From Paramyrothecium sp. XJ0827 (lineage: Eukaryota; Ascomycota; Sordariomycetes; Hypocreales; Stachybotryaceae), in NCBI GenBank assembly GCA_020881915.1, contig JAJFPB010000014.1, positions 558,001 to 622,000 of the forward strand: DNA of 64,000 bases. Reading direction: 5' to 3'. Shown one piece after another: positions 8,301 to 56,918 of this stretch. The notes beneath the pieces are model-generated. The model was not told the origin of the DNA. It saw nothing but the letters and a program-made list of their open reading frames with translations, and ran no database searches. The stretch's first letter is position 1. Each line of letters opens with the position of its first letter. A program made the position numbers and the translations under genes.

Positions 8301-8927
8301 GGGGGACCTAATTTCGGCGTCGGAAGGATAACCAATGACCTAACGATACCGGAAATCTTAACCAGAAACTAAAGAGATTACAGAGGAAGGATGCCTTGTT
8401 GTTCTAATCCTAACATGGCTAAGTGTAGGGCTGGGTTAAACTTCTTGACCGGGGGTGGACTTTGAGAGCTCCAAGAAAAACCCCGTGCTAACAAGCGGAT
8501 TTTACAGCATAACTCCTCACTCCGCTAGTGTCCATGGCAAAAATCCGCTGTAGATCTCAATCTATATGGTGCAGCAAGATGACAGGAGTGAAGATTGAGT
8601 TAGGCACCCTAGTTTAACAAGCAGGATCCTGCTGCCAAATTTAGGAAACAGGGCTGTGCATCCTCCGCATAGTCCCTGGCCGAGCCACAGTGAGACTACA
8701 AGCTCCTTTTTGACGATCTTGAAGACTACCTTACCTATATTAACACTCTAGGGTCTGGCTGTTGCTTTGATCATTTCTACCATCTTGTGTCCAATATCTA
8801 GCAATCTTTTGATTTTCTCAACAAAATCATACCCGCAAGCGTCGCCTCGAAAAATTACACCTCGATCGCAACAATTATTACAGATACTGTATTTTGCCTG
8901 CAGCAGGAATCCGAAGCCGACCTCGAG
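5369..8927. other. Long intergenic region without a supported gene
   Basis: About 3.5 kb. Overlapping open frames near 5780-6550 and 6610-7030 reach 100-170 codons on both strands but show no domain, signal peptide or consistent splice pattern. They may be chance frames or strongly decayed genes. The last few hundred bases are the promoter of the transporter at 8928. Confidence 0.4.
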
Positions 8928-10589
8928 ATGGCTCATTTACCACGATCGGCACGTGGATACGTTGAACTTTACGACACCGACACCGCCTACCCGTCACATG
9001 CCACTCAACCGCAATCATTAGAGCCTCTCCGGGATTCAGCGACTATTGACGGTTCCATACCAAAGAAGGGCGAGGTTAGCGACGAACGACTGCCTCTAGG
9101 GAAAGCTATAAAGAAATATCCAAAGGTTCTGGCTTACAGTCTAAGCCTCTGCGTCGTGGTAATCGGATGGGGCTACGCCGGGACGGTTGTTGGCGATATC
9201 AGTGGAGTTGACTCATTCAAGAAAGACTATGGCCATATGTACGAAGGTCAACTGTCGGTACCGTCCTTATGGTTATCGTTATGGATGGCTTCAACACCAA
9301 TTGGAATGACGCTGGGCTCGGTATTCGCTGGATGGTTCCAGGATTTCGCGGGTCGCCGAATGAGTTTCTTTGCTGGAAGCTTCATCTCAGCTGTGGGTTG
9401 CACGATCGTCCTCTGTTCCATCTTTCCAACAGACCTTGAGATGAAAAGAGCAATGCTCTTTGCTGGCATGACTCTTCAGGGGCTAGCCATTGGCAATTTG
9501 AAGATCACAGGCATGACTTTTATCTCTGAAATCGCCCCTCCAGCACTACGGGCATCTGTCATGGCGCTGATCCCAACTGGCAACCTCATAGGTCAGCTCC
9601 TGGGATTCATCATGCTCTACGTGATTAACGGTATCGAGGAGAAAACGGGTTACATGTCAGCATTTGGCTCTCAATTTGTCCTCGCTATCGCCCCATTTAT
9701 TATGGCCTGCTGTATGCCGGAGAGTCCTGCTTTCCTGGAAGAAAAAGGTCAAGCGGGAAAGGCAATACTGGCGGCCGAAAAGATATTTGCGCCTCGAGCA
9801 AACCCTGAGACCGCCCTCCAGAAAATTCGCGACAGTATTGCGGAGGAGAGGACCCTGAGCGGTGGAGCTACATTTGCGGCATGTTTTGCTGGAACTAACT
9901 TTCGACGGACCATGATTGTGATTATGGCCAACCTATTTCCTGCCATGTTTGGTTTGGACCTTCTCTCGAAAGCCAGCTATTTTATGCAAACTATTGGGAT
10001 GAAATCAAGCCACAGTCTGATGATTATGGTTGGCGGTATTGTTGCCGGCATTGCCTCCAACGCAGTCGGTATCTGGGTGCAATCGCGCGTCGGGCGCAGG
10101 CCATCAACCATTATTTCCATGGGCATTGCTGCTGTCCTGTGGACTGGAATGGGTGTTGTCGGCTTCTGGAGGGGTGCCCTGTTTGCCTACATCACGTCTG
10201 GTATCTTACTAGTCATTGTTATGGTCTGCGGCCTTGGTTGTTGGCCCGCAGGATATGCCGTCATGGGCGAGACTAGCTCTTTAAGGCTTCGAGCCAAGAC
10301 TCAAGCAGTCGGAGGCGTTGCACAACAGCTTTCAGCGGTAGCTATGGCATTTGGACTTCCTTACATATTCAACACTGACGCTGGCAACCTCGGTGGCAAG
10401 ACTGGCTTTGTTTTCACCTTTTTGACCTCCTTGGCCGTTGTGCTGTGTTTCTTTTTCTTGCCAGAAATGAAGGGAAGGAGTCAAGAGGAAATTGACCATA
10501 TGTTTAATATTGGACTGCCAGCTCGGCGGTTCAAAAACTGGAAGGGTGGTGAGGAGATGAGCAAGATGGACCCCGACACAGCCTTCTAA
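8928..10589 (+). CDS. MFS sugar-transporter-like permease
   Basis: This is an uninterrupted 553-residue protein with about twelve hydrophobic segments, the usual size for the fungal sugar-porter branch of the major facilitator superfamily. After a hydrophilic N-terminus of about 60 residues, the first membrane segment starts near YPKVLAYSLSLCVVVIGWG. The loop between segments 2 and 3 carries FQDFAGRRMSF. The motif after segment 6 is PESPAFLEEKGQ, matching the family's PESPRWL signature with Ala for Arg. The second-half loop carries QSRVGRRPS, and the C-terminus has LPEMKGRSQEEIDHMF, which is typical of sugar porters. It should sit in the plasma membrane and import a sugar or polyol by proton symport. 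The substrate cannot be told. The first ATG (gagATGg) is used; the gene has no introns and stands alone. Confidence 0.9.
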   Translation: MAHLPRSARGYVELYDTDTAYPSHATQPQSLEPLRDSATIDGSIPKKGEVSDERLPLGKAIKKYPKVLAYSLSLCVVVIGWGYAGTVVGDISGVDSFKKDYGHMYEGQLSVPSLWLSLWMASTPIGMTLGSVFAGWFQDFAGRRMSFFAGSFISAVGCTIVLCSIFPTDLEMKRAMLFAGMTLQGLAIGNLKITGMTFISEIAPPALRASVMALIPTGNLIGQLLGFIMLYVINGIEEKTGYMSAFGSQFVLAIAPFIMACCMPESPAFLEEKGQAGKAILAAEKIFAPRANPETALQKIRDSIAEERTLSGGATFAACFAGTNFRRTMIVIMANLFPAMFGLDLLSKASYFMQTIGMKSSHSLMIMVGGIVAGIASNAVGIWVQSRVGRRPSTIISMGIAAVLWTGMGVVGFWRGALFAYITSGILLVIVMVCGLGCWPAGYAVMGETSSLRLRAKTQAVGGVAQQLSAVAMAFGLPYIFNTDAGNLGGKTGFVFTFLTSLAVVLCFFFLPEMKGRSQEEIDHMFNIGLPARRFKNWKGGEEMSKMDPDTAF

Positions 10590-14269: not shown

Positions 14270-17200
14270 CTAAAGAAGTATACTCAAAATCAAACTAATA
14301 ACAATAATGAATGATGAGATGCTTGTTTTGCCAACACTTGCGTGATGAACAGTCTGGAAACCATCCTTGGTGTTGATGGTTCCGTTTGGCGTTTGCTGTA
14401 TAACAATTTTAGAATCAGCAGTGGAACCCGATTTAGATCCAGCACTGTAGGTGCTTCCATATTGAACTTCAATACGCTCGACGGCTGTCGCTTCATCATT
14501 GTTGCCGATTCCAGCCTTACCATTTCCAGCGTTTGCTTTAGGGTTTCCCACGCTTTGAGTGTCTGCGTCGTCGCCGGGTCCGGGGCTAACTTCGAGTCCC
14601 ATGCCAACTCGCCCAACTCCTTGAGCATCACCAACACCGGCTGTATATGATAAAGTGCCGGCAGCTGCGGCTGCGGCTTTGCTGTGCCATTGCCCGGTTC
14701 CTGCGTCAGCATAGCTGGGTTGAGTTGCCATTGCCACAGATTGAGCCGCGGAGGCGTCTTCCCAAGCTGCGCCGAACGCTGCATTTGAACCACCCTCATC
14801 ATCTTTTGTGGATTCAGACCAGTCCACAAACCCAACGGCCTTCTCAGTTGCGACTTCCGAGCCTTTGAGCCAAGACTCATTAGGGCCGAGTAAGGGTGAC
14901 CATGCAGGGAGAGCTTCCGTGCAGAGTGTTGGCTCACCATCTTGACCTGTCTTTACATATGTAGTGCAAAGCTCGGGAGGAATTTTAATGGTCCGTTGTG
15001 TTTCCTCTCTGGTTGTGACGGGGTAGCAAGTCGTAATGCGATGTCCATGAGCGTCCGTAACTAAAGCTGTCTTGCTGAAAATCGTAGTTTCCACGATCTT
15101 AACAATAGTGACGAGTTCTTGAAGGCTTGTGCCCTGATGCGTACCCGAACCTCCATGTTTTCCTTTGAATTGATTGCCATTCGGGCGACTGTGATTGCCC
15201 TTGACATTATGATTATCTGAGGTTTCATGGCCCGAGCTGCCGTCATTAGCTTCCCCCTTGTGATTATCTGAGCCACCATGTTCACTTTTTATGCCGTTAT
15301 TGCTCGCATTCTCTTCGTTATGTCTGTCATCGTCACCGTTGTCAGTCTTGCCACCATGCTTGCCTTTGTTAGCACCCTTGGCAATCGTAGTTGGTTTGCT
15401 TGTGTCGCCGACCATGCTTTCAGTGGCGGTGGTTCTTGCCAGTGAGGCCACGGTATCATAGCCCAAGAGAGTAGATGTAGGTCGTCCTGGCAAAAACTCC
15501 GGTGCAGCAAAAGACCTGACAAAATTGCAGCCATTACAAACACCAGGCGTGTAACCAGGAACGTCGATGGTAGTAACTGTGGCGGGACAATCGGAACAAA
15601 GTTGATAGGTAAAGGTTGGCATGGCATCATTGACAGCCAGTGTGGAGGCCTAAACACTCATCAGCTTCTGCAAGGGATGCGTTCACATTGTTTGTGAGTG
15701 TTGCGTAGCGGTCCATAAGACTTACCGTGATGACAGTTTCGTATTGGCCTGAGCTTGGAAACCCGATGATATCGGGATAGAAAGGTTGCCCTGCAATAGT
15801 GTAATCGTGGATTGGCCTTGAGTATAAAGCTCTTGTGACTCGGCTTCCTCGGTTTAGTCTCTTGTCCACTCCTCGCATGCCAATTCCCGAGAACTCCTCG
15901 ATAATATATATGAGTTCCTCTCCAATCTGCGTTCCTGACATGTTGGCTTCAATTGATGCGGTCGAAGAAGTCTGAATCGGCGTGCTATCAACAGAAAGGA
16001 CGACACTAGAAGTGGTGTTTGTTAAGCCGAAAAAGAATGCACTCGAAGCTGGCAGTTCTGCGCTTGTGGAAGGCGTCACGATGATAAGAGGCTCCCGCAA
16101 AAGACTAGACAGGGCCAGCGCGCACTCCCCAGTTTCCAGATCTCGACCGTTGACACACCGGCAGGATGAGTTACAAGAACTGCTAGAGGTGCCGTTTTCC
16201 GCCGTGCCCTCGTCGCATTCCTCGTTCGGCTGGACGATTCCGTCACCGCAGAGTTCCGTCTTGCATCTTGCGGAGCAGCCGTCACCGTCTGTTGTATTGC
16301 TGTCGTCGCATTCCTCACCGAAGTGTAAAACACCGTCACCACAGAACTCGAGCTTGCAGGACGCGTTGCAACCATCACCATCCACCGTGTTGCCATCATC
16401 ACAATCCTCACCAGGCTGCAAGATTCCATCGCCGCAGAATTCAAGCTTGCAACTGGCGGTACAGCCATCGCCGTCCACCGTGTTCCCGTCGTCGCATTGC
16501 TCCGTACTCTGAACGATATTATCGCCACACCGTTCCAACTTGCAGTCAGCGCTGCAACCGTCATTATTGTCCAAGTTCCCGTCGTCACATTCCTCGTCGG
16601 CCTGAATAATATTATCACCGCATATCTCTAGCTTGCAAGTGGAGCTGCAGCCATCGTCATCGGCGATATTTCCGTCATCGCATTCTTCGCTGTCTTGAGT
16701 AATACCGTCGCCACAAACCTCCAATTTGCATGAAGAACTGCAGCCGTCATTGTCGGCGACGTTTCCATCGTCACATTCTTCATTGTCCTGGCGAATATTA
16801 TCGCCGCAAACCTCCTTTTTACATGAAGAGCTGCACCCATCATTATTGTCTCTGTTCCCATCGTCGCATTCTTCGTTCGCCTGGACAATATTGTCACCAC
16901 AAACCTCCCGTTTGCAGGTCGAGCTGCACCCATCATTATTGCGAAGATTGCCGTCGTCACACTCCTCGTTGACCTGAGTAATACCATCCCCGCAGACTTC
17001 TCGTTTACACGTCGAGCTGCAGCCATCATTGTTTAAGATATTACCGTCGTCGCACTGCTCATTGGCCTGGATGATACCGTCACCACAGACTTCTCGTCTG
17101 CAAGTCGAGCTGCAGCCGTCATTGTTGAGGATGTTCCCGTCGTCACACTGCTCATTTGCCTGGACAATACCATCTCCGCAGGTTTCTATTTTACAAGTCG

Positions 17201-18341
17201 AGCTACAACCGTCATTGTTGAGGATGTTTCCGTCGTCGCATTGCTCGTTTGCCTGGAGGATACCGTCACCACAGACTTCTCGTCTGCAAGTCGAGCTGCA
17301 ACCGTCATTGTTGAGGATGTTTCCGTCGTCGCATTGCTCGTTTGCCTGGACGATACCGTCACCACAGACTTCTCGTCTGCAAGTCGAGCTGCAGCCGTCA
17401 TTATTGAGGGTATTTCCGTCATCGCATTGTTCGTGGCCCTGAACAATACCGTCGCCGCACCAAAAGTTGGCAATGATGAAGTATGGGTTGGGAACCGTGG
17501 AATCTGACATTTTGGCGATCGGGAAGAATCTGCCGATATTCGTGAATGTCAAATGCGAGGTATGGCCCCATCCTGACAATAATGCGTCTGTGAGACCTTC
17601 CATGAGAGGATGCGTCGGACTAGTAATCTGAGCTCGTTCGAGATACTGATATGTCCTGACTCTCACCCCAAATACGTCGAGAAATCCAAGGTCAGTTTCT
17701 TGTGGGTTCGAGAATATTGGCATCACGAAGAAAAATCCCGTTCCAGCCCCCTGAGTCGTCAATTTAAGAGTCTACGGGGACGCGTACGTTAGCAAACTTT
17801 CCACTTCAAGACACGAGTAATGGAATGCATCGAGCAGTGCTTCGCGAGCTCACTCGGAGTGACATGGCTTGACTTCAGCGTTATAGCCTGGACAACTTAC
17901 ATTCTTTATCAGGGTTACTTTTCCCGGGGTGCTACTTGGCATCCATCCAACAAGCCCGCCGTGTAAGACTACATTTCCTGTTATTGCGGGGCCCCATTGG
18001 GCTTTCGTTTGGGCAAGGAAATCAATTGTCGGACTGGCATCCCCCCAGCCCTGGAAGGCGTCCAGGTAAAGGGCTTTGTATTTCTTAAAGTCGTTGGTAG
18101 TCATGGTCCTGAAGATTGGGATGCTGACAACATCAACTAAGCAAAAGATATTAGCAGAAAACTTGAACCCGTGGTAGTGATGGCATATACCGGTCATGCC
18201 CAGCTCCAACGCCAAAGCATATGCTTTTGTTGATCGACCGGAGGCTCCAGAATATGCGTCAATCATGAGGACGTCTGCAGCGATTGCTCCTGTAACCATC
18301 CATATTGCCGCAATTAGGCTTGCGAATTTGCGGGACAACAT
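14270..18341 (-). CDS. Large secreted DUF4215 cysteine-repeat protein with GPI-like C-terminus, four exons
   Basis: Exons 18341-18191, 18136-17901, 17771-15726 and 15649-14270 join in frame to about 1,270 residues. The introns have gtatat, gtaagt and gtaagt donors and AG acceptors. Residues 1-21 are a signal peptide ([21 protein letters not shown]). A globular N-terminal region of about 230 residues follows, then fourteen near-identical 31-residue repeats of the form [24 protein letters not shown], with six cysteines each. These match the DUF4215/Myxococcus cysteine-rich repeat known mainly from bacterial surface proteins. A serine/threonine/glycine-rich stretch and a hydrophobic C-terminal tail ([15 protein letters not shown]) suggest a GPI-anchored wall or surface protein. 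The last repeat is degenerate. The function is unknown; adhesion or binding is a guess. The repeats may have been acquired from bacteria. Confidence 0.85.
16146..17459 (-). repeat. Tandem array of fourteen 93-bp coding repeats (DUF4215)
   Basis: This lies inside the gene at 14270-18341. Thirteen units of exactly 31 codons are followed by one degenerate unit. The first five units (about 17459-16995) are the most alike, with nearly invariant [12 protein letters not shown], and later units diverge (DGDGCNASC). That pattern suggests recent expansion at the N-terminal end of the array. Confidence 0.9.
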
Positions 18342-27248: not shown

Positions 27249-28256
27249 TTAATGTCCCTTCAAATCCTCTTCTCTCCACGAGATACCTTGTACATTTATT
27301 AGCCTTTAAAAATCGTGTTGTTGGATAGACAGACGTACCAAGAGTTGGATGAGTAAATATAGGACCCAAAATGCTTTCGATATAGTGCTGCGCTGCCCAA
27401 TCTGTTATCGCAGCCCAATTCCGGCACTCGTGTTCCGTATTGAACTGTGGCCAAGGCCAGCGATAATCATCAATCCAGTCGTATGTCTGGATAGAAACAT
27501 CGCCATGACACATGAGGACCTGCCTAAGGATGTCGACACAGTGATCGGCATGCTTCAGCTGCTCCTTCAACGGGTGCTCGGTAGGATAGTGGTCGCGGTA
27601 AATTTGTTTCCGTAGCACATTGAGACAGTGAAGCTCGTGAAAGACATCTAGAGTCACAAAATAACCACCCTTTTCATCATTCAGAAGTATTGAACTGCGA
27701 TTGATGCGGTCCATCTCCTCCTTTGGGAGCCTGGTGTTGGTATCTGCATGTACGTCAGCAAAACAACAAGTTCTTTCTGGGCACGATATCCTGTCCGCAC
27801 ATTTATAGAGTGTATTCCAAGCTTTGTCAACTTCGGGTCGTGGCTGACCTACGTATTGGCTTTGGCCGCCTAGGGGGGCATCCACCGTAATGCGCTCATA
27901 CTTCATCGAATCAAGAGCAGGTACTGCTTTCTTTTAGTTATCGGCTTTGAACTATCCCAGGGTAATGTTGGAACCTTACAGTACATAAGGCTGTCACACT
28001 CAGACTTTGCGCAAGACTCCTTGCGCACTTCGAGGACGAGAAAAAAGACCGTTGTGTAAACACATAGGAGGCCTAGATGTATTATCCAAGGCCAAACACT
28101 GTATTCTTTGCGGCGCTTCCATGCAACCGAATTGAGGCTGAGACTGCCAACGTCTGTCTCCTGCGAATCAACCCGACCGTGGTTCTGAAGAAGCTTGTCG
28201 TCTTCTGGGCCACAGCGTGTTGGATTACGCATGTATGAAAACATCACAAATTTCAA
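27249..28256 (-). CDS. UstYa-like (DUF3328) oxidase A, three exons
   Basis: Exons 28256-27980, 27923-27339 and 27286-27249 give about 299 residues. UstYa-family proteins form bonds in fungal cyclic peptides, such as the oxidative ring closure of ustiloxins. The protein has one membrane segment (WIIHLGLLCVYTTVFFLVL) and then the family start PALDSMKYE. Both copper-type motifs are intact: HELHCLNVLRK and HADHCVDILRQ, followed by VLMCHGDVSIQTYDW and EHECRNW. The last intron, after HPTLG, is chosen because the two + strand relatives splice at the same point; without it the frame reads on to 27232. The start is less sure (ATG at 28244 also possible). It is divergent from relative B, with 558 bases between their starts. 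Confidence 0.85.
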
Positions 28257-28814
28257 TGCTGAGTAGGCTGCGACTGTACAAGCAATGTGGAAAATGATTG
28301 AAGGGCAGACTTACCTCCCAGCGTGCAAAACTAAGGGGAACACCCGGGACCCCTTTGTGCCTGAGAATACGTGCTCGTCTATCCCGGAATAGTTCCGCAG
28401 CCTTTTGTTTCCTTCTAGCGTGTGCGTATTACACGAAATAGCCACGACGGCACTGATTGCATGTTGATGCACGGGTATACAGAATTGGAAGAGCGGCTTA
28501 AGCCATTGCTGTGAATGTAAATGCACCCCAAATGGCACCTTCTTTCCCAGGCAATGGCGTGGACGATCAATTAAAGTGTGGATTGTTGGGTCACATGCAT
28601 ATTGACATGCGAAGTGATAAGCGCCTGCATATGCAAGATTGTGGTGGTGGCTCAATCATAATGGCACGAACGCCAAAACGCGCATCCATCGAGCCCTAAG
28701 TGAATTTCCCAGTCTGAGTCCTGCTTCCTTTCTCGAGTTGGATTGTACTGACTTCATCGTCTTACCACTTCACCGGCCCACAGCCTCCTCTCTCTTCAAG
28801 TTTCTGATGACCCT
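28257..28814. promoter_or_regulatory. Divergent promoter shared by UstYa-like genes A and B
   Basis: The 558 bases lie between the start codons of two divergently transcribed UstYa-like genes and should hold both promoters. At 28385-28397 there is a perfect inverted repeat CGGAA-TAG-TTCCG. This is a CGG-N7-CCG arrangement of the kind bound by dimeric Zn2Cys6 regulators. Confidence 0.5.
28385..28397. promoter_or_regulatory. CGG-N7-CCG palindrome, possible Zn2Cys6 binding site
   Basis: CGGAATAGTTCCG has perfectly inverted 5-base arms around a 3-base centre, 129 bases upstream of the gene A start. Binding is inferred from the known preference of dimeric zinc-cluster proteins for CGG half sites. 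Confidence 0.4.
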
Positions 28815-29831
28815 ATGATGGATTCCAGAAGCTCTTACACGTCTTTGAACTTGAGTATGAATCGAGAAGACGAAGATTCGAGTCAAACATCTTCGCTCGA
28901 CACTCTCCTAGAGAAAGCGTCTGCCCGATCGCGTGACACAAAGTATTGCGACATCGGTGCAAATACCCGCAGTGGTATCAGGTTGTCTACTGCGCTCAGT
29001 ATTCATGCTCTTCTAATTGTTTTGTTTGGGGGGATTTGGCTGCTCCTTTTCAGCTTACACGGTTATGAGTACCAACATGGGCCCAACTTGATACGGAGTC
29101 AGAAGCTCCCCTGACCTCTCTCACCATTGCGCCTGCTTGCTGACCTCTTTGTTCTTTTGGAATTAGGCCCTGCTAGATCTGCGGTACGATATGTAAAACA
29201 GACTCTGGATACCAACCTCTACATAAAAGACGTGTTCTTTACGCCCCCCGGGCCAGAGATAGATGCGGCGTGGGACAATCTTATGCGAGGTAGGCTAGAT
29301 CCCAATGGGTAAAAAAGGAATGGAACCTGTTATACTCACTTTCTTCGGTTTAGACAAATACTCTGCTGTTTCACCGACCGAGCTTCTTCCTGAGCATTCG
29401 GTAAAGCTCAACGATGTGACAGAGCGAGTCGTCATCATGCTGGAGGTCTTTCATACCCTGGACTGCCTCAACTACATCCGCAAGTTTACCTTTCGCTCGT
29501 ACTACAACATCAGCGACAATGAGGCGGAAGTTCAACGCTTCGGGCAATGCGTCGAAGCGGTTCGCCAGACGATTATGTGCTACGCGGACATCTCTCTGAA
29601 CACTTATATGTGGCGCAAAAACAGACGTCTCCCGTTCCCTGACTTTCGAATCGATCATGAGTGCAGAGACTGGGGAAGTCTCCAGCAATGGGCCGAGGAT
29701 CACAGATTGCCCCCACTTGGCGACGAGATGCTAGACCATCCTACTTTTGGTATGACGAAACTCCTCATTATTACCTCAAAGTACATTACTAAAGGTTCAA
29801 CTTCTGTTCAGGGACTACCAACATTGAATAG
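28815..29831 (+). CDS. UstYa-like (DUF3328) protein B with degenerate active motifs, four exons
   Basis: Exons 28815-29097, 29167-29289, 29354-29749 and 29812-29831 join to about 273 residues. The membrane segment is ALSIHALLIVLFGGIWLLLF, and the family start is SPARSAVRYV after the first intron. The region expected to carry the two HxxHC motifs reads HTLDCLNYIRK and FGQCVEAVRQ. One of two histidines is lost in the first motif and both in the second, while the cysteines and the surrounding family sequence (TIMCYADIS, DHECRDW) stay intact. The reading frame is not otherwise decayed. It could be a non-catalytic partner of another UstYa protein, or a recently inactivated copy. The first donor (gtcaga) is weak. 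The last intron falls after HPTFG as in genes A and C. Confidence 0.82.
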
Positions 29832-30930
29832 TCAATACGTAAAATTTGATACAGATTTCTAAATCCCTTGTTCCCGCATTGTCACATGTAACCCTTTGCA
29901 TGGCAAACGAAGCAATCGGAGATCAGTTATCAAATACAAAATATTCCTAAGCGTCAGCTGTATGAAACAATCTAGAAACAGAAGGACTGGGTTTTGGGAC
30001 GTGGATATGAAAGACGTCTCAAGTCTGACCACTCTACCCAAGGGTTCTGTAGCAATACTATCTTGTTAACGTCATGAAATTGGGTGGACATCCGATTGAA
30101 TGGTCACAAGACCGGCAATGATGGTCCTATCGCCCCAATCGTAGACTCGTACGTGACCAGATGACCTGAGCTTGGCTGTGTTTCGAAGGAATGTGGTTTC
30201 CTCAATAGTGATAATTGCCAAGCGCGCCACAATGTCACCACTAAGAACTTCGATAAGCCTAGGTACTCGGAAGCATGCGTATAGTCGCTCCTACAGGGTC
30301 CTGCAGGTTGTTCAGCTGAAGGATCAGGTCCAAGACTAGCCTTACAGGGGTCGCCTGTCCCACATACATGACATCCCCCGCCGGCTCGGCCCGCTCACGA
30401 CCCCGGTCATCTAACAACCTTGAGGCCAAGACAGACACCCTTACTTCAGGTCGGAGCGAAAGCCCAACGATGATGATGGGAGGCCTCCAAATCTCTTACT
30501 TCCATTTTCTAGTTTCAGACTGGATTGGGTTCTTCGGATGCGCGAAGGAGTCGCTCGAAACCTGTCAATATCCGACCAATAGAGTTTCCAATCTCCCTGT
30601 CCCAGGAATCAGCTCGCAGGCCAGCGCCCCATACCAGTAACCATTAGATGCATATGAGAAATATTACGTGTACAACCAGGTAAGCAATCAATGTTTTTAG
30701 CAAATCTCCTTGAAACTGCAGGTGGTCAATTCAACCTTAGTTGTCTCAACAAGTATTGATCCTGGTTCTTTGGATTCACTCGACTCTTTGACGCGTCTGA
30801 GAGCTCTTCAATGCATCAGAACAAGAAGCCTCTGTGTCCTAGGTTTTACCTAATCGTAAAGCAGCTATTTGCTCGTTCCAGATGAATGACATACTGATCA
30901 TGTTCTTAGATCTAGACTGACTTTTGTACC
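29832..30930. other. Intergenic region inside the peptide cluster
   Basis: About 1.1 kb. A 90-codon frame at 30368-30640 (+) has no domain. This region should contain the promoter of gene C. No TCGTCCG site was seen here. Confidence 0.35.
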
Positions 30931-31937
30931 ATGTTCGGACAAAACTCAATGAGAGCCGGTCAAGGCTTCTCGATCCAACGAAGGATGGTTGGCTCGCCCT
31001 TGATTCTTCATATTTGCTTCTTTCTTGTTTACGCGGTTGGTTTCTTGTATGCAGTACAAGATATGATCCGTCATCGTCATGAGGCTGGTCTCATTCACTG
31101 TACGTTGTGGAGGTACGATCTCCTCTGGGCTCAGATCGCTAAAACAGAAAAGCGCCTGCCAGAATCGCAGTGGAATATGAAGTAAGGACTGTTAACGACT
31201 CAAATCCACCTGCGTTTGCAAACCCCCCGAGCAAAGAAACCGACAAAGCGTGGCAGGCTCTACTCAGATGTATGTTCAATTTCAATCCAAAAAATCTCCT
31301 GGGAACTGTTACTCAATCAAGAACAGACGACAATCTTGTGATACAGGGGGATGACTTGGTTCGAATAGACAAGCTATCCGTTCCACTCCGCGATGGTTCA
31401 GGCTACCTCTCTGGTCTAGGTGTAATGCACCAGCTGCACTGTCTTGTCAGTCTGACATTAGAGGCTCCAACGCGCTGGGCGGAAGCAAATCAAACTGACT
31501 CAGCAGATGGAGTAGAACCACGTCCGTGAATATGCGTTCCGAGAATACTACATTAGAGAGACTGGAAAGGACAAAGAAGTCCACGTTTGTAAGTTTGCTC
31601 TACAAGAACATACCCTGTGTGAGCTGACACGACACATAGACCACTGTATCGATAACTTGCGACGGATTATTATGTGCCATGCTGACATCACTCCGCGCAC
31701 ATATCAGTGGGAAGAAAACTCGCCCTTGCCTTCAATGAAATCAATTTCGAAGCGGGAATGCAGAAAATGGGATCCTATTTACGCATTTGCCAAAGGAAAT
31801 CAACCTTCCAGGACACATGGCGCTATCCTGGAGAATCCAACTTTGGGTAAGCATCTACAACTTGATTTGATTGCGGACCTAACATGATTCTAGGCGTCAT
31901 AGAGTCTATCCGTCTTAATGCATCTCAGGCTCAATAA
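30931..31937 (+). CDS. UstYa-like (DUF3328) oxidase C, six exons
   Basis: Exons 30931-31099, 31153-31269, 31327-31445, 31516-31588, 31640-31846 and 31894-31937 join in frame to about 242 residues. Each junction restores family sequence: the membrane segment LILHICFFLVYAVGFLYAV, the start SPARIAVEYE, then GSGYLSGLGVMHQLHCLNHV, VHVYHCIDNLRRIIMCHADI and RECRKW. Both HxxHC motifs are complete (HQLHC and HVYHC), so it is likely an active oxidase acting on the cluster's peptide in the secretory pathway. The final intron after NPTLG matches genes A and B. It reads towards the precursor gene, in the same direction. Two acceptors (aaag at 31152, acag at 31326) are chosen to keep the frame. Confidence 0.83.
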
Positions 31938-33015
31938 TTTCAAGGCACAGGGTAGTTGGTGGTACTATTGCATTATCTCACTGTGAACAATTGGACAGAG
32001 TAAGCAACTGTTAGGGCAATTAGACTTTGCTTGAAATATATTATACTTTGATCTGGTATTAATCAAGAGAATCGTTATTCTAAAAAAGCTTGTTGTGAAT
32101 TCCCGCAAAGGGTTGCAAATACCGTGCCTGGCAAGAGGAGACCCAAAGATGGGTAGGACCCGGAGAGTGAACGTAAACGCCCAGAGACTACCATCGATCT
32201 TACAGATTCACCACGATATGACGAATCGCCCCAGTCGCAATCCTTGCATGATAATGTCTGCCGGACAGCTCCTTGATGCAGTTCAGCCACGCCGTTGCAT
32301 GAGACATCTCACCTTGCAGGTCAACTCACGTTTGCCTGATGCATTGCGATTGTGTTGATTTCTCTACCGCAGATATCATACTTCAGCTTCGACACGAGAC
32401 TAAAAAGAGGCAATAGACCACAGATCGGCAGGCTTGGCTAGTTTCTCTCGTGACCTTACTCGTTGTCATATCCACCCGATGGTGGCTTGCGTGGTGGCTT
32501 GCCCTAGCAATTACTCCCACCAATAGGCTAACCACTCTTGCATTACCGCTGCTGCTGTTGCATGGAATCAAAGTACTTGGCAAAACTCTACATGAGGTCC
32601 GCTATTGATAATAAGGTGCATGAATTTGTAATCTAAATGTAAGCCCTGTCGTGGCTTCAATCTCTAGTGTTACGGACACGATCAATCGCGAACGTCTCGG
32701 ATTTGGTACGAAAGTGCGGGGATACCAGGAAGAAGGCCTGACTCAGATGAGCTGGTATGAGTGACCACATGCTTCTCATGCAAGATAGATGCGGGAAATC
32801 GAAAAGAGTGTAAACGACGCAAGAGCTGAGTCCTGGAGAGCGGTTCGGAGCTTGCCTGGAAGCCGATCAAGTATTTAATGTCCTATTCCCAAATCTCCAT
32901 CTTTTAAAAAGAAATCTTGAATCTACGCTCCCCGAAAAGTCTCGACGAGTGATTCAGTATTCAGAAACATTGAAGCCACAAACAACAACTTGTCAGTAGG
33001 GCAACTTTGGACATC
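31938..33015. other. Intergenic region upstream of the precursor gene
   Basis: About 1.1 kb with no supported gene. The short minus-strand frames show no features. It should contain the precursor promoter. Confidence 0.4.
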
Positions 33016-33688
33016 ATGCGTTTCTCAGCCACATATTTGCTGTTCGGCCTTGCTAGCATTTCCACTGCAGCTCCAGTTCACGGCAATAGAGGTGAGGCAC
33101 CAGTCATACACTTTGTGTTCGAAGCTAACAGAGGCCCTCAAAGCCCTTCGCCGTGAAGACATCGATGCTGACGCTGCTGAGAAATACAAGCTCTACGTTG
33201 ATCCCAGCAAGCGTGACACAGCAGAGATCGATGCTGACGCTGCTGAGAAATACAAGCTCTATGTTGATCCCAGCAAGCGTGACACAGCAGAGATCGATGC
33301 TGACGCTGCTGAGAAATACAAGCTCTATGTTGATCCCAGCAAGCGTAGCGTAGCAGAGATCGATGCTGACGCTGCCGAGAAGTACAAGCTTTACTCTACG
33401 GATGAGCCAGAGAAGCGCGAGGAGTCTGGGGCGGAGCTTGACGCTGATGCTGCTGAGAAATACAAGCTTTACTCTACAGAAAAGCGCGAAGAAGCGGACC
33501 TTGATGCTGATGCTGCTGAAAAGTACAAACTCTACTCTACGGAAGAGCCAGAGAAGCGTGACGAAGCTGAGACCGATGCCGATGCTGCTGAAAAATACAA
33601 GCTCTACTCTACGGAGAAGCGTGAGGAATCAGATATCGATGCTGATGCCGCTGAGAGGTACCAGGGTTACATTGACAGCCGCATTTAG
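33016..33688 (+). CDS. Repeat-containing RiPP precursor (dikaritin/UstA type)
   Basis: The ATG at 33016 gives a signal peptide (MRFSATYLLFGLASISTAAP). A short intron starts at 33092 (gtgagg). It can end at 33143 (better spacing from the gctaac branch site) or 33131, and both keep the frame, giving 206 or 210 residues. The rest is eight tandem repeats of 20-24 residues. Seven contain DADAAEKYKLY followed by an acidic or Pro/Ser tail and Lys-Arg; the last contains RYQGY and ends at IDSRI. This is the known design of UstA-like precursors: secreted, cut at Lys-Arg by Kex2-type protease, with a short core repeated many times and cyclised by UstYa oxidases. YKLY is the likely core, with tyrosines at both ends. 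Four UstYa-like genes flank it. Confidence 0.9.
33155..33688 (+). repeat. Eight tandem precursor repeats with YKLY/YQGY cores
   Basis: Units 1-3 end VDPSKR and are nearly identical at the DNA level. Units 4 and 6 end with an EPEKR tail, and units 5 and 7 with STEKR. Unit 8 is divergent (YQGY) and lacks a final Lys-Arg. The alternation of long and short tails in units 4-7 suggests duplication of a two-unit block. Confidence 0.9.
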
Positions 33689-34384
33689 ATCCGATGTGGG
33701 TAAGGGTTATCAGCCATGTTCTTCAAGCGGGCTACTAGCGGCGAGATAAGTAGATATGTGGTGGGGGCTCAAGCTGGCTTTTGGTCAAGTGTCAATTATT
33801 CCATAGCCTAATAAACTCACACCCTCCTTAACCTGGTTTGACAGCCAAGTCAATCTCCTGTTAATCAGCCTTGTCATGAGAGATTTGATGCACGTAGTCA
33901 TTTCGCCTCTAAGACCCAAATGGCCAGTCTGGAAAGCTAGAGGTCTGGATAATGCGTACCAAGCTACGTCTTGAAGCTCGAGTAGTGACCCTAATCTGAT
34001 GCGTTGCTGTATCACGTCTTGACCCCTGTCACTGGTGGTAGGCCCCCACTCGTTCAGCTCATGCAGCCAGGGCTGAACAAGGCGTGTGCCATTGCATCCA
34101 GTGTGAGTGCAGCCATGTGCTAGGAGAACAGTACCTGCGCCTTCCTAATACGTAGGCGGATTGCCAAGATCAATCGATGGCGTTTCTCTTCGGTTTTCGG
34201 CGGACGATGCATGATACATCGTGTCGCTGCTGAGTTCACCGAGTGAAGCTCAACCCCATTACCCCACCCTCCCCTTCTGCGTTCATGTGGGCCACGCTCA
34301 AATTTTCGTCCGGACATTGTGGTTCTATTCGATTAACCTCAGTTGCCTCTATAGACATCATTCATACCTATCTGACGCCTGACT
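33689..34384. other. Intergenic region between precursor and UstYa-like gene D
   Basis: About 0.7 kb without a supported gene. The last 100 bases hold the TTTTCGTCCGGAC element upstream of gene D. Confidence 0.4.
34303..34315 (+). promoter_or_regulatory. TTTTCGTCCGGAC element upstream of UstYa-like gene D
   Basis: This 13-base stretch lies 70 bases before the ATG of gene D and recurs exactly at 47809-47821, upstream of the Zn2Cys6 gene. It contains the palindrome GTCCGGAC. It may be a site for the shared regulator. Confidence 0.45.
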
Positions 34385-35090
34385 ATGGGTAACAGCGAGG
34401 ACTCCCAGAAATCTACCATGAGGTATAGCTGGCTGGCCGTTTTGGCTGTCATTACCACTTTGGCACTAGCAACAGCCTTTTGGGTTGATATCCCTACCGG
34501 CACGGGTTTGCAGCATCATTCTGGCGATTGCAAAGGGACAGATAATTCTCAGGGCTTGATTAGTGTGGTCTTTGGGGAATACGACGAGTACAAAAACCTT
34601 AGCCATGCCCATGACCATCTTTGGGATGATCTCCTTACGCCCAACGGTGGTTATGTCAAGGTAACGGAGAAGAATCATACGACGCACATGTACGGCATCT
34701 CGATGTATCATCAGCTCCATTGCCTCCAAATGATCAGGAGCGCGATACAGGACCTACAGCACCAGGTCAGCGGTCAAGGAAACGAAGTTTCTCACGAACA
34801 GTTTCACAGAGAAGATTCTCATACGCATCTGGACACAAAGCATTGGGTGCACTGTCTGGATTATTTGCGACAGGTGAGAGCTTATGACGCTTCCCGAATT
34901 GAGCAGGATTAACGACTTGCTACAGACAATTCTGTGCAATGCAGATGGCACCATTGAACCACCTAAGATACGTTCATCTGGAGAGGAATTTATTAACGGT
35001 ATGGGGGAAAGAAAGTGCAGGGACTGGTCAATGCTAAGAAACTTGTCTTTACGAAAGAACACTCCTATAGAAGACCTTATGATAAAATAG
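34385..35090 (+). CDS. UstYa-like (DUF3328) oxidase D, two exons
   Basis: Exons 34385-34873 and 34926-35090 join in frame to 217 residues; the intron has a gtgaga donor and a tacag acceptor. It is the most divergent of the four relatives and looks more like the UstYb-type branch. It has a membrane segment near the N-terminus (WLAVLAVITTLALATAFWV), a single family core, and both motifs complete (HQLHCLQMIR and HWVHCLDYLRQ). These are followed across the splice by TILCNADGTIEPP and RKCRDW. It lies just after the precursor in the same direction and should act on the same peptide. The intron between LRQ and TILCN is well supported, because the unspliced frame stops at once. Confidence 0.85.
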
Positions 35091-45308: not shown

Positions 45309-47657
45309 CTATTTAACTGAGTCGTTCAACCAAGCCCAATCATCTCCAAAATTGGGCGCGATAGTGTGTGCCCAATCGAAGTCAATGGATGCCACCTCCG
45401 GAATTATACTATCCCAAGATCCCGTGTCACTTGTTTGGCCATTATCGCGGGTGGCATTGGATACTAAACCTGGAGATTTATTGACGTGAATAGGATTCTC
45501 GTGAAAAGTGTCGTGAGATAGGCTGAAAGCCAAGGGAGGGTGGACTGGTGGTGATTCACATCCAGGCTGCGAGTTGGTGTAATAACTTCCGGGCGATATT
45601 GTGATGATACCTGCATAAGGAACGACGACCTTCACATGGGGACTTGTCGGTGATTCTCCTGTTTTGTGGGAGCACTCGCCCTTGTCCAAGAACATTAAAG
45701 TCTCCAGTCCTTGACATGCTTGTGATGCAATAGGGTTGCTGACCGTGAACGAAGCCTGGCGGAGCGTATCAATGGTCAAGCCTATCAGGTCACGGTCCTT
45801 ATCTTGATTCACAACCTGATGGACGGAACTTCCATACCCAAGTAGCCCAAGAATCAACAATGACGAGCACACAAACGCCTGGTAGTCGATGACATTAATC
45901 ATGCCAAAGGCCGATAGTGTGTCGGAGCGCATGGAGTGATACACTTTGAGAAAATTCCGTGAAGCTTGCAAACACGCAGTTCGGTGTTTTTCGAGTTGGG
46001 CATCCTCGACAGAATGAATCATGAGGGGCATGTGAAGCATCACCATCACATGGTAGAGCCAACATTGCGTTGCAGTCTGATCCAAATATTCTTGGCGCGA
46101 TATCTGGCCGCTTGCCAGCGTAGCTGAAGGGTTCCAAAATGCTTCGTCGCAATTTTTCATCGCGGCTCCAAGCTCCCTCTGGATTTGTTCAGTGCGTGAA
46201 ATTGACAGACTCAAACCACGTTGGTTTCTATCAATAACTTCTGCTGACAGTAGTATCAGGTTGTGCTGCAGCAATGATGTGGCATCAAGTTCACTTTCCC
46301 TAATAGGGATTGTACGCCCATCCGCGGCATAAGGCAGGCCCAGAAGAAGAGATGAGTACACGTCTCCCGAACACAACGAGAGCCACGACTGATTTCGACG
46401 ATGTCTATCTGCCTCCGTTTCGCTTGCGGAGAGACGTTCTGGACGATGAAGCCCAAGCAGTTGACCGTAAGCAATGGCTTGATGGGTGAGAACCCAGCAT
46501 TTTCTAAGCAATCCCAGATTCACTAAACCCCAGTCAACATCGGCAGAAACAAACAAGTGGATCCCAAATGACCTACTGTAAATCTTGCACGATAACATTA
46601 TTGTCTGAATTCCCTCCTCAGTGCTAGCATAATCTGGATCGTTTATGATAAGACGATTTACCTTCTCGAAATAGGTCTGAAAATATGCTCCTGGGGGACG
46701 AGGCAGTTGACGTATGATGAACTGATGAACTCTTGTGTCTAGTTGCTGAAGACATACGACAATACAAAGCATAGCGAGACCAACAACTGGGGGATGGTCA
46801 GAATCAAGTGCCCAGAGCACGAAATCCGGTAGCGTTGAGATGGCTGTGTCACCGATCGATGCTGGAAGCCATGGGCCAAGGGGCCTCCTGTTCGGTTTCA
46901 GTAAAGATCATTGTTTTTGTCGGTGCGACATACCATGTATGCCACCATGAACCTGTTGCTATCATGATCATTCCGACCAACTCTGGGGGTATTGGGTCTG
47001 AAAGAAGTGCTTTGCAGGTATGCATGCGTTTCGTTACGGCTGACGAACTTGCGGCTCGAGCAGCCTCGGCATTGTGCTCAGGTTCCATGTCCGAGCCGTG
47101 ACTTTTCCACTATTCTCATTCTCAGTGAACACGGATTTGAACGAGTCTTAGGCCAGGAAGCTTACAATAGCATTGTCAAATAATGTAACTAGGGGATTGA
47201 TGCTCTGGGGGGAACTTTCGTCGATTGAAGGGGGAGCGTCAGTCGGCGAACGAGATGCTGGCGTTGAGACAGGAGCAAATGACGATGATGGTGATGATGT
47301 CTCAGGTCCTCTTGACTCCATAACTTGTGGATCATCGCTGACTTCTGAACCGTTCAGACGACTGGGTGTCTGGCCAATATTCTTGTCGGCATCCTTTTTT
47401 GTCGAATCCGAAGCTTGGAGGGCAGCCTCAAGTCTTGCGACCCGATTCCTGAGGTTCTCCCTGTTGTCAATGCCGGCGGCTTGAATAAGCTCTCGCCTTT
47501 GTTCGGTACATTCTTTGGCTCTCACAGCACAGTTTTCGCAAGTTGTGGAATCTTTTGGGAAGTTGCATCGCACCTTTCGCTTTCGGCATTCGTAGCAACT
47601 ACGGGTTCCTTTCCGCATACCTTTTTGCAATTTCGCGGGTCCTGCCTGGTTCAGCAT
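45309..47657 (-). CDS. Zn2Cys6 transcription factor, likely local pathway regulator, three exons
   Basis: Exons 47657-47166, 47109-46934 and 46887-45309 join in frame to about 748 residues, with introns of 56 and 46 bases. The zinc cluster is complete (CYECRKRKVRC, then CENCAVRAKEC). It is followed by a linker and a short coiled coil (NLRNRVARLEAALQA) for dimerisation. The second half is the fungal transcription-factor domain, with WALDSDHPPVVGLAM, IAYGQLLGLHRPERL and RNQSWLSLCSGDVYSSLLLG. The splice after SWWHTW restores PLGPWLPASIGDTAI. The upstream region carries two paired TCGTCCG elements like those in front of the adjacent transporter, which suggests self-regulation and control of the transporter. 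One of the elements recurs upstream of UstYa-like gene D. Confidence 0.87.
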
Positions 47658-47704
47658 CTTGGGGAAATTATGGTCTGCTTGGCCTCACAGCGCGGGTCAA
47701 GTTC

Positions 47705-47722
47705 TCGTCCGAAGACTCGTCC
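47705..47722 (+). promoter_or_regulatory. Paired TCGTCC site in the regulator promoter (proximal)
   Basis: TCGTCCGAAGACTCGTCC lies 48 bases upstream of the regulator ATG. It is a direct repeat of CGTCC with a 12-base period, the same layout as at 44804. Confidence 0.5.
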
Positions 47723-47799
47723 ATAAAAAGGCACAAGAGAGACCCCCCCGCGGTTCCGGATGGCTGGCGCTGACCTAGACCCACCCTTCGCACGAATCT

Positions 47800-47821
47800 T
47801 CGTCCGAGTTTTCGTCCGGAC
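47800..47821 (+). promoter_or_regulatory. Paired TCGTCCG site in the regulator promoter (distal)
   Basis: Two TCGTCCG copies with a 12-base period; the second runs into the palindrome GTCCGGAC. Bases 47809-47821 are identical to the element before UstYa-like gene D. The site is about 95 bases from the proximal site, close to the 98-base spacing in the transporter promoter. Confidence 0.55.
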
Positions 47822-47822
47822 C

Positions 47823-48724
47823 TCAGCTGACAAAGTCATTTCGGAATCTATCTGTACATTAACCGATCAAAGGTGCCGATCTCCCTTCCAGTTAATTGTA
47901 TCCAATAATTGAGCATAAGCAATGCCTATCATACTAAGCCCCGTTATGAATTTACCCAGGTTCTGAGGTGAGTGCGGCTTTGAGCTAGTTTCGTGTGAAT
48001 ATGCCAGTATGAATCACTTGTGCACAGCCAGGGTTTGGTTGACTACCGCATGCGGTAAATCGACGAATACGTGGTCGATCTGCATGGATGTGAAAAGCGA
48101 GTTAGGTGGGACAGCCGCGCAAGTGGTGAGGCAATGTGTATCATCGAGTTGTGCTTCGGTTGCGCCGATGTCTAAGTATGACAGTTATCGAAGGCAGCAC
48201 GCCGCCGTAGTCAAGTGCGCAACAGACGGCCGACCAGCTGTTGGAATATTGGTGAGGCATTGCCATCACAGTGGGATGCGTAAACTCCTGGGTTTTGTAC
48301 GAGGAAAATCCATTTCAAATTGCCGGCCTGTCATAGGAAAATCAATCCGCCAGTCTCCTCCCCCTTGGCCGCGTCTTTGTGCTCTAATGCATTCACGTCG
48401 CAATCAGCCGCGCTGGTCGCAATTTTTTCGAAGTTTCACTCGCGTGCCAGATGATGAGTTGGATCAAAACGAATAATCTATAAAACTTCAGCCGGTTTAT
48501 TGTATCGTCAAAACACGATTCGAATGGCTTCCAGATGAGGTGTAATGCTACATTTGCTGCCTTCTTCGGGCCCATTGGGGCTTGGAATAGGCGAGCACCT
48601 GCACAGCACCAACTCAATCTGGTGCCACAGCATCATTTCCACGGTGTAAGCTTGGAATTCCCTATCACTCCAATACACAATGCTCTAGAATTGCATGAGA
48701 TAGGCTAGAACTTATTAATGCATC
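47823..48724. other. Intergenic region, nothing recognised
   Basis: A 155-codon plus-strand frame at 48009-48476 shows no domain, signal peptide or splice support. Confidence 0.35.
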
Positions 48725-51916
<3,192 letters not shown>

Positions 51917-55000: not shown

Positions 55001-55908
55001 CTACCACGCTGACCGGCTGAATTGCATTTGCGCTTCAGTCATTCCCTCTTCTAGGAATTCAGCCTTCTCATCCGCGGTCAGGTCAATACTGGCCTTAGGC
55101 ACTTTTCCCCATATTGCCAGAATCCGCAAACTCACGGCTGCAGCACCCACGCCAAACCAGAACGTGTTCTTATAGCTCTTCCCCAGTCCTGCCACGTCTA
55201 CCGTTGCTGACTGGATAATGTCCATCAAAGCAAGGACGAAAGCTACACCTAGCTGCAGCACAGATTTAATCACGCTCCCGGCCAAAGCCTGCTGTACTTG
55301 GGAAAGGTGGTGGTTACGAAGACTATCATCAAGATTGTGGACAGATCAATTCCGATGGTGCTGAAGATGACTGCAGGGAATATCCATGCCCAATAACTTC
55401 CTCCAAGTGGAATCAGAGCAATAAGAATCTGTGATCTTACTGCACCCAGACCAGAGATGATTAACAGCACACGCCCTGGACCCAGGTGCAAGATGAAGCC
55501 TTCGATGACACTGATAATGAGGCCCACAAGACCAAGAGGCACGTACCACGCTACCACCTGCAACGGACTGGCAAGCATGATGTTCTGGAAATAGAGCGTG
55601 CCATATACAGAGAAGGTGCCCCAGGTGCCGTAAAGCAGGAAGAGAGCCAAAAGGAGAGGGCTCATAAAAGGAGTCATGAAGATCGAAGCTGGTAAAAGAG
55701 GCTGATCAGAGACGCGGATCTCGATGTAGGCTGCAGCAAGGAGTGAGAAAAGGCCAAGTACGAGATAGACTGGGATATATGGCGTTCGCCAAACTACAGG
55801 AGCGTGTGCTGATTGCAAGATGAAAAATACGACTAGGACGAGACCACGGGCGATCGTAATGGCGCCGAAATGGTCCATTTCGCCCTCACGACCAGCAGCC
55901 AATGACAC
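55001..55908 (-). pseudogene. MFS transporter fragment, C-terminal half, frameshifted
   Basis: Only the second half of a 14-segment MFS exporter is present: about eight membrane segments starting near ITIARGLVLVVFFILQS, through GTWGTFSVYGTLYFQNI and PLQVVAWYVPLG. The frame shifts near 55285. One frame ends FVTTTFPKYSRLWPGA, while the family continuation LAGSVIKSVLQLGVAF runs in the neighbouring frame to a stop at 55001. The N-terminal half is missing; beyond 55908 the sequence no longer resembles a transporter and a different broken gene begins on the other strand at about 55993. Confidence 0.75.
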
Positions 55909-55992
55909 CCTGAAATTATCGCCATCCCTGACGCTCAGGAACCCTCGGATGATCCATGTGACATTGGAAGTGATGCGTCAGTCCTCCGCAGA

Positions 55993-56495
55993 GTGACCAC
56001 CGAAAGCAAATGGCTTGTCGAACTCTCCTTAGTCAAGGAAGGCTGGAACATGAAAGTTTCAAGGGCTCGCTACAGCCCAGAAAGCAACGCCATAGCAGCC
56101 CGCGCCCGTGACGCCGGCGTCTCCATCCGAAAGAAGACCCGCCTACTGATTGAGCGAGGCGATCCAGACACTCAAGTTGCGCTCGTAACGCACGTGGGTT
56201 TCTTGCACTCTTCACCAATGACTGGGAGGACTCGTGGTCAAATCCTGGGACGGGGTGGCAGAACTGCGAAACTCGGGCTTAGGTATTCGAGCAGGATGTA
56301 ATGAATGATTTAGATGCGGATGCTAGGCTTATTGAGACGATGGACAGTCGACTAAGGAGGGGAAAGAATAATGCCATCCCGGCTGCGAAAGAGCAGGCAG
56401 TGCTATTTCAGCAAGCAATGGAGAATTGGGAGACTCAGAGGCTACAGAGACCCAATAAAGCAGGGCTGAATCTCGAAACGGATATTTTTGCATGA
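55993..56495 (+). pseudogene. Histidine-phosphatase (phosphoglycerate-mutase-like) fragment
   Basis: The 3' part of a phosphoglycerate-mutase-superfamily gene. EGWNMKVSRARYSPES and AIAARARDAGVSIRKK are followed by VALVTHVGFLH, the second conserved histidine block, which normally reads THGGF. The frame then shifts near 56200: LFTNDWEDSWSNPGTGWQ continues in the next frame, a TAG near 56280 interrupts it, and VFEQDVMNDLDADARLIE closes the gene. The N-terminal RHG active-site part is absent. It abuts the MFS fragment head to head, consistent with a rearrangement that cut both genes. Confidence 0.65.
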
Positions 56496-56918
56496 TTAAT
56501 TATTAAAAGTAGCTTTGTAATCCAGAGTTCTCTTTAAACTTGGCTGTCGCACAATTAATAATAGCCACGCAACATACTTTACACTGCCATTCGGCCTCCC
56601 CAAGACTGCGGCAGTATACATGAGGCCGAAACAAGGAATCCTTACTCATGCAGGCTCAGGCAGGCTTCCCGCGGGCTCTCTGTTCAGCCCAGGCATCTCA
56701 GGAAAGCTCGCATCAAAGCGGCACCTGCTCAGTTCTAGAAGCAGAAAGAAAATACTCTGTGTCTGGTTTGGAGTGGTATACGGGCTGAGATTTTATTGAC
56801 CTAATGTAAACCTACCAATTACAGACTTACAACCTGCTCTAAAACCAGCCAACTACCTTTGCGGCTCAGTGACTTCTCTTGTATCGAACCAAACAATGTG
56901 TTCTTCAGACAGATTAAA
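56496..56918. other. Intergenic region, nothing recognised
   Basis: The 3' flank of the hexose-transporter-like gene and of the phosphatase fragment. No features were found. Confidence 0.4.

Follow-up and report, generated by a model that had tools for sequence, protein, structure and literature searches.

A locus of Paramyrothecium sp. XJ0827 in which one repeat-containing precursor gene lies among four DUF3328/UstYa-like genes raises the question of what so small a gene set makes and why it carries several UstY proteins, whose separate roles within a cluster are largely open. Our explanation as a whole, which we consider reasonably probable, is that the locus would be a dikaritin-type cluster in which UstY-B represents a conserved pseudo-oxidase, with cleavage, cross-linking, product and pairing as predicted steps. 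The analysed window is the whole stretch of 64,000 nucleotides, and the features of the cluster within it are as follows.

27299..28244, minus strand: UstY-A, spliced model with exons 28244-27980, 27923-27801 and 27743-27339
28818..29831, plus strand: UstY-B, spliced model with exons 28818-29061, 29167-29289 and 29354-29749, the last exon from 29812
30931..31937, plus strand: UstY-C, exons 30931-31099, 31153-31269, 31327-31445, 31516-31588, 31640-31846 and 31894-31937
33016..33688, plus strand: precursor gene with a signal-peptide-like N terminus, one intron and eight Kex2-type repeats
33164..33685, plus strand: repeat array, DADAAEKYKLY seven times, then DADAAERYQGY once (codon table and TRF)
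34385..35090, plus strand: UstY-D, spliced model with exons 34385-34873 and 34926-35090, of a short, divergent type

The UstY gene models follow reading frame and splice sites; the end of exon 3 and the last exon of UstY-B were set by eye from the sequence, as were the end of exon 5 and the last exon of UstY-C, the remainder of which is a spliced model. The earlier placement of UstY-A is corrected to the minus strand, with the start codon (ATG) at 28244; its last exon, from 27303, is short and probable, and the frame extends to 27232 if the last intron is unused. All four genes around the precursor match PF11807, as had been predicted (E values of 1.7e-58 for UstY-A, 3.7e-34 for UstY-B, 4.3e-45 for UstY-C and 3.4e-20 for UstY-D), and all lie within about 6 kb of it, with UstY-A and UstY-B adjacent and divergently transcribed. 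Both HxxHC motifs are intact in UstY-A (HELHC, HADHC), UstY-C (HQLHC, HVYHC) and UstY-D (HQLHC, HWVHC), the last of which has an unsure position in the tree because of its long branch. The four upstream regions had no 8-10-mer in common, which says little because the 300 control sets had almost none either, and no Rfam match was found within the window.

The precursor starts at an ATG at 33016 with the N terminus MRFSATYLLFGLASISTAAP, which is signal-peptide-like by Kyte-Doolittle hydrophobicity only. A short GT-AG intron with the donor at 33092 and the acceptor at 33131, 33143 or 33158 keeps this N terminus in frame with the repeats and gives a protein of 201-210 aa, depending on the acceptor. 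The intron model and the repeat table thus bear out the predicted signal-peptide-like start and eight repeats, of which units 1-7 end in KR and unit 8 extends to the C terminus (SRI), with spacings of 22, 22, 22, 26, 21, 24 and 21 aa. TRF splits the array into 33157-33394 (score 406) and 33431-33654 (score 209). The reading frame of the repeats is constrained: among the variant codons of the 11-residue block DADAAEKYKLY in repeats 1-7, 9 are synonymous and 0 non-synonymous, for which an expected synonymous share of 0.19, or 0.33 with transitions only, gives P of about 4e-7 and 5e-5 if the variants are taken as independent, an assumption that does not hold for repeats. Adding repeat 8 brings the block to 10 synonymous and 3 amino-acid variant codons, and the same count in the linker columns is 3:13 and 0:8. 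This codon-variant pattern rules out a non-coding tandem repeat. The prediction of a YKLY core fits seven repeats, but the last one reads YQGY, without leucine, and in repeats 1-7 the invariant block comprises all 11 residues, so that YKLY is not proven as the core; the part common to the full set of eight repeats is DADAAE[K/R]Y..Y only. The protein search for precursor homologues scored 7991 candidates, none of which reached E <= 10. Relatives of UstY-A and UstY-B were found. A second precursor copy was not found in the own genome, and in the openly licensed literature KYKLY gave one match, unrelated, and DADAA with Kex2 led only to Le Marquer 2019.

The invariance of all 11 residues in repeats 1-7 leaves room for a mature core longer than YKLY, e.g., DADAAEKYKLY(V/S), with the acidic residues retained in the product, and the related motif given by Le Marquer, DADAATXYV[A/V]D (PMC6339444), points the same way. 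We nevertheless hold such a core to be somewhat unlikely, as the ustiloxin core is thought to be trimmed from Kex2 peptides of 13-14 residues (PMC6514808), and a conserved flank can therefore be a recognition segment. A more radical alternative is that the repeats yield linear, unmodified secreted peptides, i.e., signalling peptides or repeat effectors, and that the UstY genes act on something else. Umemura's survey (PMC7329392) lends it some plausibility, as 6120 of 7878 Kex2-processed repeat proteins had no nearby UstYa gene. Against it, UstYa neighbours were recorded for 22% of such precursors, and this locus has four such genes so close to the precursor. In the same survey, repeats contained tyrosine in 65.6% of cases with UstYa neighbours vs 38.2%, and tyrosine is present here, so linear peptides appear distinctly unlikely as the end product.

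The minimal composition proposed for the cluster stood up to the search, as neither a tyrosinase nor a P450 match was found in the window, which makes the cluster minimal and asperipin-like. Tyrosinase (PF00264) gave 47 exon-level matches in the genome, the nearest on the contig (C5) lying about 213 kb before the window. The Pfam scan of 28 sequences (the five proteins of the cluster together with 23 frames from the window) revealed no regulator, transporter or peptidase adjoining the cluster and no methyltransferase, short exons being outside the scan. Frames for ABC, sugar and MFS transporters occur at 3-608, 8802-10586, 55273-55977 and 57608-58291, none of them closer to the cluster than about 17 kb. 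A loose first look at the whole genome gave no match to S41 peptidase (PF03572). By eye, at least seven repeat-precursor/UstYa loci, including this cluster, are present in the genome: 13 frames passed the mechanical filter of the precursor survey, among which three belong to the window (the precursor, the frame antisense to it and a DUF4215 frame), six elsewhere are repeat precursors, and four are low-complexity or overlapping. When the motifs of the remaining UstYa genes were surveyed on unspliced frames, in which split motifs are not judgeable, one gene (L022) had HQLQC at the first motif.

The four UstY genes had been treated as alike, which does not hold for UstY-B, where HTLDC and RFGQC stand in place of the expected HxxHC motifs. 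As the two altered motifs are encoded within a single continuous exon (29354-29749), a faulty splice model is excluded as the cause of the loss. The loss is conserved: six of the seven UstY-B homologues covering the motif region are without both motifs, and the seventh and most distant one (P0050), sister to the others and counted apart, retains only the second motif intact. P0051, a first exon lacking the motif region, was excluded from this count and from the tree. The clade of UstY-B and the six homologues P0044-P0049 (support 100/99) has neither motif in any of its 7 sequences, in contrast to the UstY-A matches, 42/43 of which carry both; the exception, P0039, without the first motif, was excluded from the tree and the residue-conservation comparison. 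Within the B clade, none of the 7 sequences has the second His of either motif, and the first His is missing from 3/7 and 5/7, respectively. Motif 1 contains Asp (6/7) or Asn (1/7) as the replacement, and motif 2 contains Gly (7/7) followed by Gln (5/7) or Lys (2/7). The four conserved Cys are identical in 7/7 B-clade sequences, as are Arg174, Trp219 and His234 (UstY-A numbering), and the profile comparison of UstY-B with UstY-A relatives gave E 4.9e-53. The structure model of UstY-B is poor (pLDDT 51) and too weak for use, and retention of the fold therefore rests on sequence. A sequence search of the PDB gave no relatives, the four matches (E 0.21-0.28) all being KCTD16, and a fold search with Foldseek likewise retrieved none at E <= 0.001. 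Equal length of the longest contig is the only basis on which the A-like P0018 and the B-like P0045 from the same source (6642), and the A-like P0003 and the C-like P0035 of Colletotrichum falcatum (55350), are probably linked. No report of a conserved UstY lineage without the copper site was found among the matches listed from the openly licensed literature, with bioRxiv outside its scope.

The best reading would be that UstY-B pairs, as a conserved pseudo-oxidase, with an active UstY, although UstY-B could bind another metal or act alone. Motif loss by itself resembles relaxed constraint, as in a degenerating duplicate that is about to be lost, but the frame is open across several exons, the closest relative shows 83% identity across half of UstY-B, and the same kind of replacement recurs in sequences just 53-55% identical to it, which makes decay highly improbable. 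An active UstY-B using another metal site or chemistry, with Asp/Asn and Gln/Lys in place of the second His of each motif, would explain the conservation of the substituting residues, a pattern that a new function would be expected to produce. It appears unlikely in view of the histidines lost and of CctR, a DUF3328 protein and two-copper dimeric oxidase, in which exchanging motif residues for alanine abolished all activity (PMC12435403). The authors of that study postulate an accessory protein that would deliver electrons or Cu(I). Conservation of a UstY-B lineage without the copper-holding residues suggests a helper role, and we tentatively propose, at somewhat less than even confidence, that this pseudo-oxidase lineage provides a needed second subunit of a heterodimeric cross-linking oxidase or an accessory protein for such delivery.

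In the pathway that we envisage, the precursor would enter the secretory pathway and be cleaved by Kex2 after each Lys-Arg and after ALRR, releasing seven YKLY-containing peptides, each 20-24 residues long, and a single YQGY-containing one. UstY-A, UstY-C and UstY-D, as putative membrane-anchored copper oxidases, would cross-link the tyrosine-containing core oxidatively, most likely at the two tyrosines, since apart from DADAAE[K/R] no other residues are shared by the eight repeats. DADAAE is probably a recognition segment, and the acidic flanks would be trimmed by peptidases encoded elsewhere. UstY-B keeps the family signature and conserved cysteines, but the known two-copper site presumably cannot form in it, and it would most likely assist an active UstY as its partner, e.g., in substrate holding or dimer geometry, with UstY-A as the first candidate because it is divergently transcribed beside it. 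A two-tyrosine core, the lack of a tyrosinase and the few genes make the cluster a convenient one in which to study a new cross-linked peptide, and UstY-B allows a direct test of catalytic vs helper subunits. If the pseudo-oxidase partner reading is true, it would help explain why a single precursor is often accompanied by several UstY genes in fungal RiPP clusters.

The predicted dikaritin-type architecture is recognisable in the signal-peptide-like start, the Kex2-type repeats and the four PF11807 genes, and the locus appears to be a new member of the compact dikaritin-type RiPP clusters, its product and exact core being predictions. The precursor has Kex2-flanked repeated cores, its signal peptide being judged by hydropathy only. 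PMC12048977 treats the presence of a DUF3328/UstYa protein carrying two HxxHC motifs as the defining feature of dikaritins; UstY-A, UstY-C and UstY-D are of this kind and UstY-B is not. Ding's original list, as quoted there, also includes a cluster tyrosinase, which is absent here. With CctR and the other DUF3328 copper oxidases, the same three proteins share both HxxHC motifs, whereas UstY-B shares the profile and the conserved cysteines and lacks the HxxHC(x)nHxxHC copper-ligand site. Ustiloxin B and phomopsin (PMC7329392 and PMC6514808) likewise derive from Kex2-cut repeated precursors and have two and five UstYa family proteins; a tyrosinase is present and needed there, in contrast to this window, and their cores YAIG and YVIP differ. 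The predicted novelty of the core holds against these and against FYYTGY of asperipin-2a, but the repeat itself has a precedent in motif 3 of Le Marquer 2019, from Kex2-processed repeats of Pezizomycotina. DADAA and a Tyr as third residue after it are shared, DADAA..Y occurring in 8/8 repeats here, whereas T-X-Y-V-[A/V]-D contrasts with E-K-Y-K-L-Y, the full motif is absent, and the section of PMC6339444 on motif 3 describes it without UstYa context. According to PMC6514808, asperipin-2a of Aspergillus flavus comes from a four-gene cluster without tyrosinase, with one UstY (AprY) vs four here and with a reductase, AprR, and a transporter, AprT, for which no counterpart was recognised beside our cluster among the 28 sequences scanned. 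What the two systems have in common is a minimal cluster of a repeat precursor and UstY oxidase without tyrosinase, and a core with several tyrosines, as in the Y..Y found here.

Five genes with models spliced by GT-AG introns make up the cluster, which lies on contig C5 (window C5:558001-622000) of a 51.77-Mb fungal genome assembled into 15 contigs. They occupy 27.3-35.1 kb in this order:

UstY-A, minus strand, UstYa/DUF3328 gene
UstY-B, plus strand, UstYa/DUF3328 gene
UstY-C, plus strand, UstYa/DUF3328 gene
Precursor, 33016-33688, plus strand, Kex2-type repeat peptide gene
UstY-D, plus strand, UstYa/DUF3328 gene

The PF11807 scores of all four UstY models far exceed the Pfam cut-off, and in the genome-wide profile search the PF11807 matches in the window are confined to these genes. 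The tyrosinase profile gave no match in the window and 47 exon-level matches genome-wide, the nearest on C5 about 213 kb before the window, and none of the at least 105 P450 matches in the genome (92 scored of 399 candidates) falls in the window. The original prediction of a minimal dikaritin-type cluster, with a Kex2 repeat precursor and UstYa genes and with tyrosinase and P450 matches absent from the window, is therefore upheld. The S41 peptidase (PF03572), a family known from phomopsin-type clusters according to excerpts of PMC6514808, had no match across the whole genome. In two cases a P450 match on C2 scores almost the same as one on C4 (C2:2154037-2154669 and C4:449196-449828; C2:2104740-2105264 and C4:714483-715007), a hint that a segment may have been duplicated between these contigs.

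Beyond the five cluster proteins, a Pfam scan covering 23 frames of the window found ABC, HET, sugar/MFS transporter, DUF4215, CRAL-TRIO, 2EXR, Zn-cluster, fungal transcription factor, beta-galactosidase and glucosamine-isomerase domains; no evident partner of the cluster is among them. The Zn-cluster frame (47151-47684) lies about 12 kb from the cluster and is no evident member of it. A large-type (LacZ-like) beta-galactosidase, the Zn-cluster regulator frame and sugar/MFS transporters stand close together (47151-51371 and 55273-58291, minus strand), perhaps as a galactoside-use cluster, and a 714-aa open frame (15630-17771, minus strand) carries 14 cysteine-rich DUF4215 repeats.

The precursor starts at 33016, its N terminus is hydrophobic as in secreted proteins, and its short intron leaves the frame unchanged with any of three acceptors (33131, 33143 or 33158). 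The 11-residue block of its eight repeats is invariant in repeats 1-7 (DADAAEKYKLY) and reads DADAAERYQGY in repeat 8. Variant codons in the block are 9 synonymous to 0 non-synonymous over repeats 1-7 and 10 to 3 over repeats 1-8, while changes in the linker columns are mostly of the amino acid (synonymous to non-synonymous 3:13 and 0:8); the P values of the codon test are guides only, since repeats can share history through duplication or conversion. The pattern shows that the frame is translated and the block constrained, and does not by itself fix the residues of the product.

The repeat-frame scan of the window and 20 stretches around other UstYa genes passed 13 frames, 10 of them outside the window. 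Judged by eye, six of these 10 add to the Kex2-type repeat frames that neighbour UstYa genes, no two with the same repeat:

L012, VAYGRHTDD x16, about two copies per Kex2 unit
L016, ADGF
L023, HHQGAKTN
L024, STNNQAGWG x10
L026, GDPILDIN x6
L029, ADGAFFVINW

The genome thus probably holds at least seven repeat-precursor/UstYa loci, the window cluster being one of a repertoire. The one 5.8S rRNA match among the 39 scored of 1475 candidates (C9:2907815-2907966) looks like a degenerate copy within other sequence.

UstY-A, UstY-C and UstY-D each carry two HxxHC copper-binding motifs, whereas UstY-B has HTLDC and RFGQC instead. Of the eight matches to UstY-B, the six that span the motif region (P0044-P0049) contain neither motif (NSLDC/RFGQC, HTLDC/RFGQC, NSLDC/HFGKC, HSLDC/RFGQC, HTLDC/YFGQC, NSLNC/HFGKC); P0051 consists of the first exon only, with the motif region absent, and in P0050 (Bombardia bombarda, 39% identical) HDLYC stands in first place while the second motif, HVAHC, is intact. 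Both motifs are present in 42 of the 43 matches to UstY-A, P0039 being without the first. In the tree, where the placing of the long-branched UstY-D is unsure, UstY-B groups with P0044-P0049 in a single clade (100/99), whose sister is P0050 (100/97). This arrangement is compatible with the first motif having been lost earlier than the second, although the first-motif changes, to Tyr in P0050 versus Asp/Asn in the B clade, could be independent of each other.

All seven B-clade sequences lack the second His of both motifs, and the first His is lost from motif 1 in three and from motif 2 in five. None of the four conserved cysteines has changed, and where the A family is at least 90% uniform (34 columns), the B clade shares the commonest residue in 24. 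Loss of HC in both motifs was seen in none of about 20 other UstYa genes of this genome, grouped by ourselves and read as unspliced frames, some of which show one motif region only; in one gene (L022:4877-5521) the first motif is partly altered, to HQLQC. A good structure model of UstY-A exon 3 (pLDDT 82) has one motif on each of two long helices (residues 32-50 and 58-78), with no similar PDB fold at E <= 0.001. The poor, low-confidence UstY-B model (pLDDT 51, eight sequences) has helices at comparable positions (27-45 and 56-88).

In the oxidase CctR, two coppers are held by HxxHC(x)nHxxHC, alanine mutants of motif residues are inactive, and dimers are joined through inter-chain disulfides (PMC12435403). 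Since the coppers and activity of CctR rest on these motifs, UstY-B should, to judge from its sequence, be no CctR-like oxidase. That UstY-B is conserved, keeps its cysteines and lies divergent to UstY-A suggests a helper subunit. UstY-B is a candidate for the accessory protein that the CctR authors hypothesize to deliver electrons or Cu(I) (PMC12435403). A-like and B-like genes, and A-like and C-like genes, are probably linked in other genomes, judged solely from equal-sized contigs. The original prediction overlooked this conserved UstY without a copper site, which raises the interest of an otherwise ordinary cluster.

The cluster is real, constrained, minimal and dikaritin-type, ordinary in kind and with an apparently new core. 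It falls within the wider dikaritin definition (Kex2 repeat precursor plus UstYa) and outside Ding's original five-gene list, as relayed in part by PMC12048977. The predicted novelty of YKLY holds against the cores named in portions of PMC7329392 and PMC6514808, with which alone it was compared (YAIG, YVIG, YVIP, YTIG, YFIG and FYYTGY), but repeat 8 gives YQGY, and the repeat is similar, though not identical, to Le Marquer motif 3 as given in part of PMC6339444, which weakens the case for an entirely new kind of precursor. In ustiloxin biosynthesis ustYa and ustYb are both required, according to excerpts of PMC6514808. In how it would work, the window cluster most resembles that of asperipin-2a.
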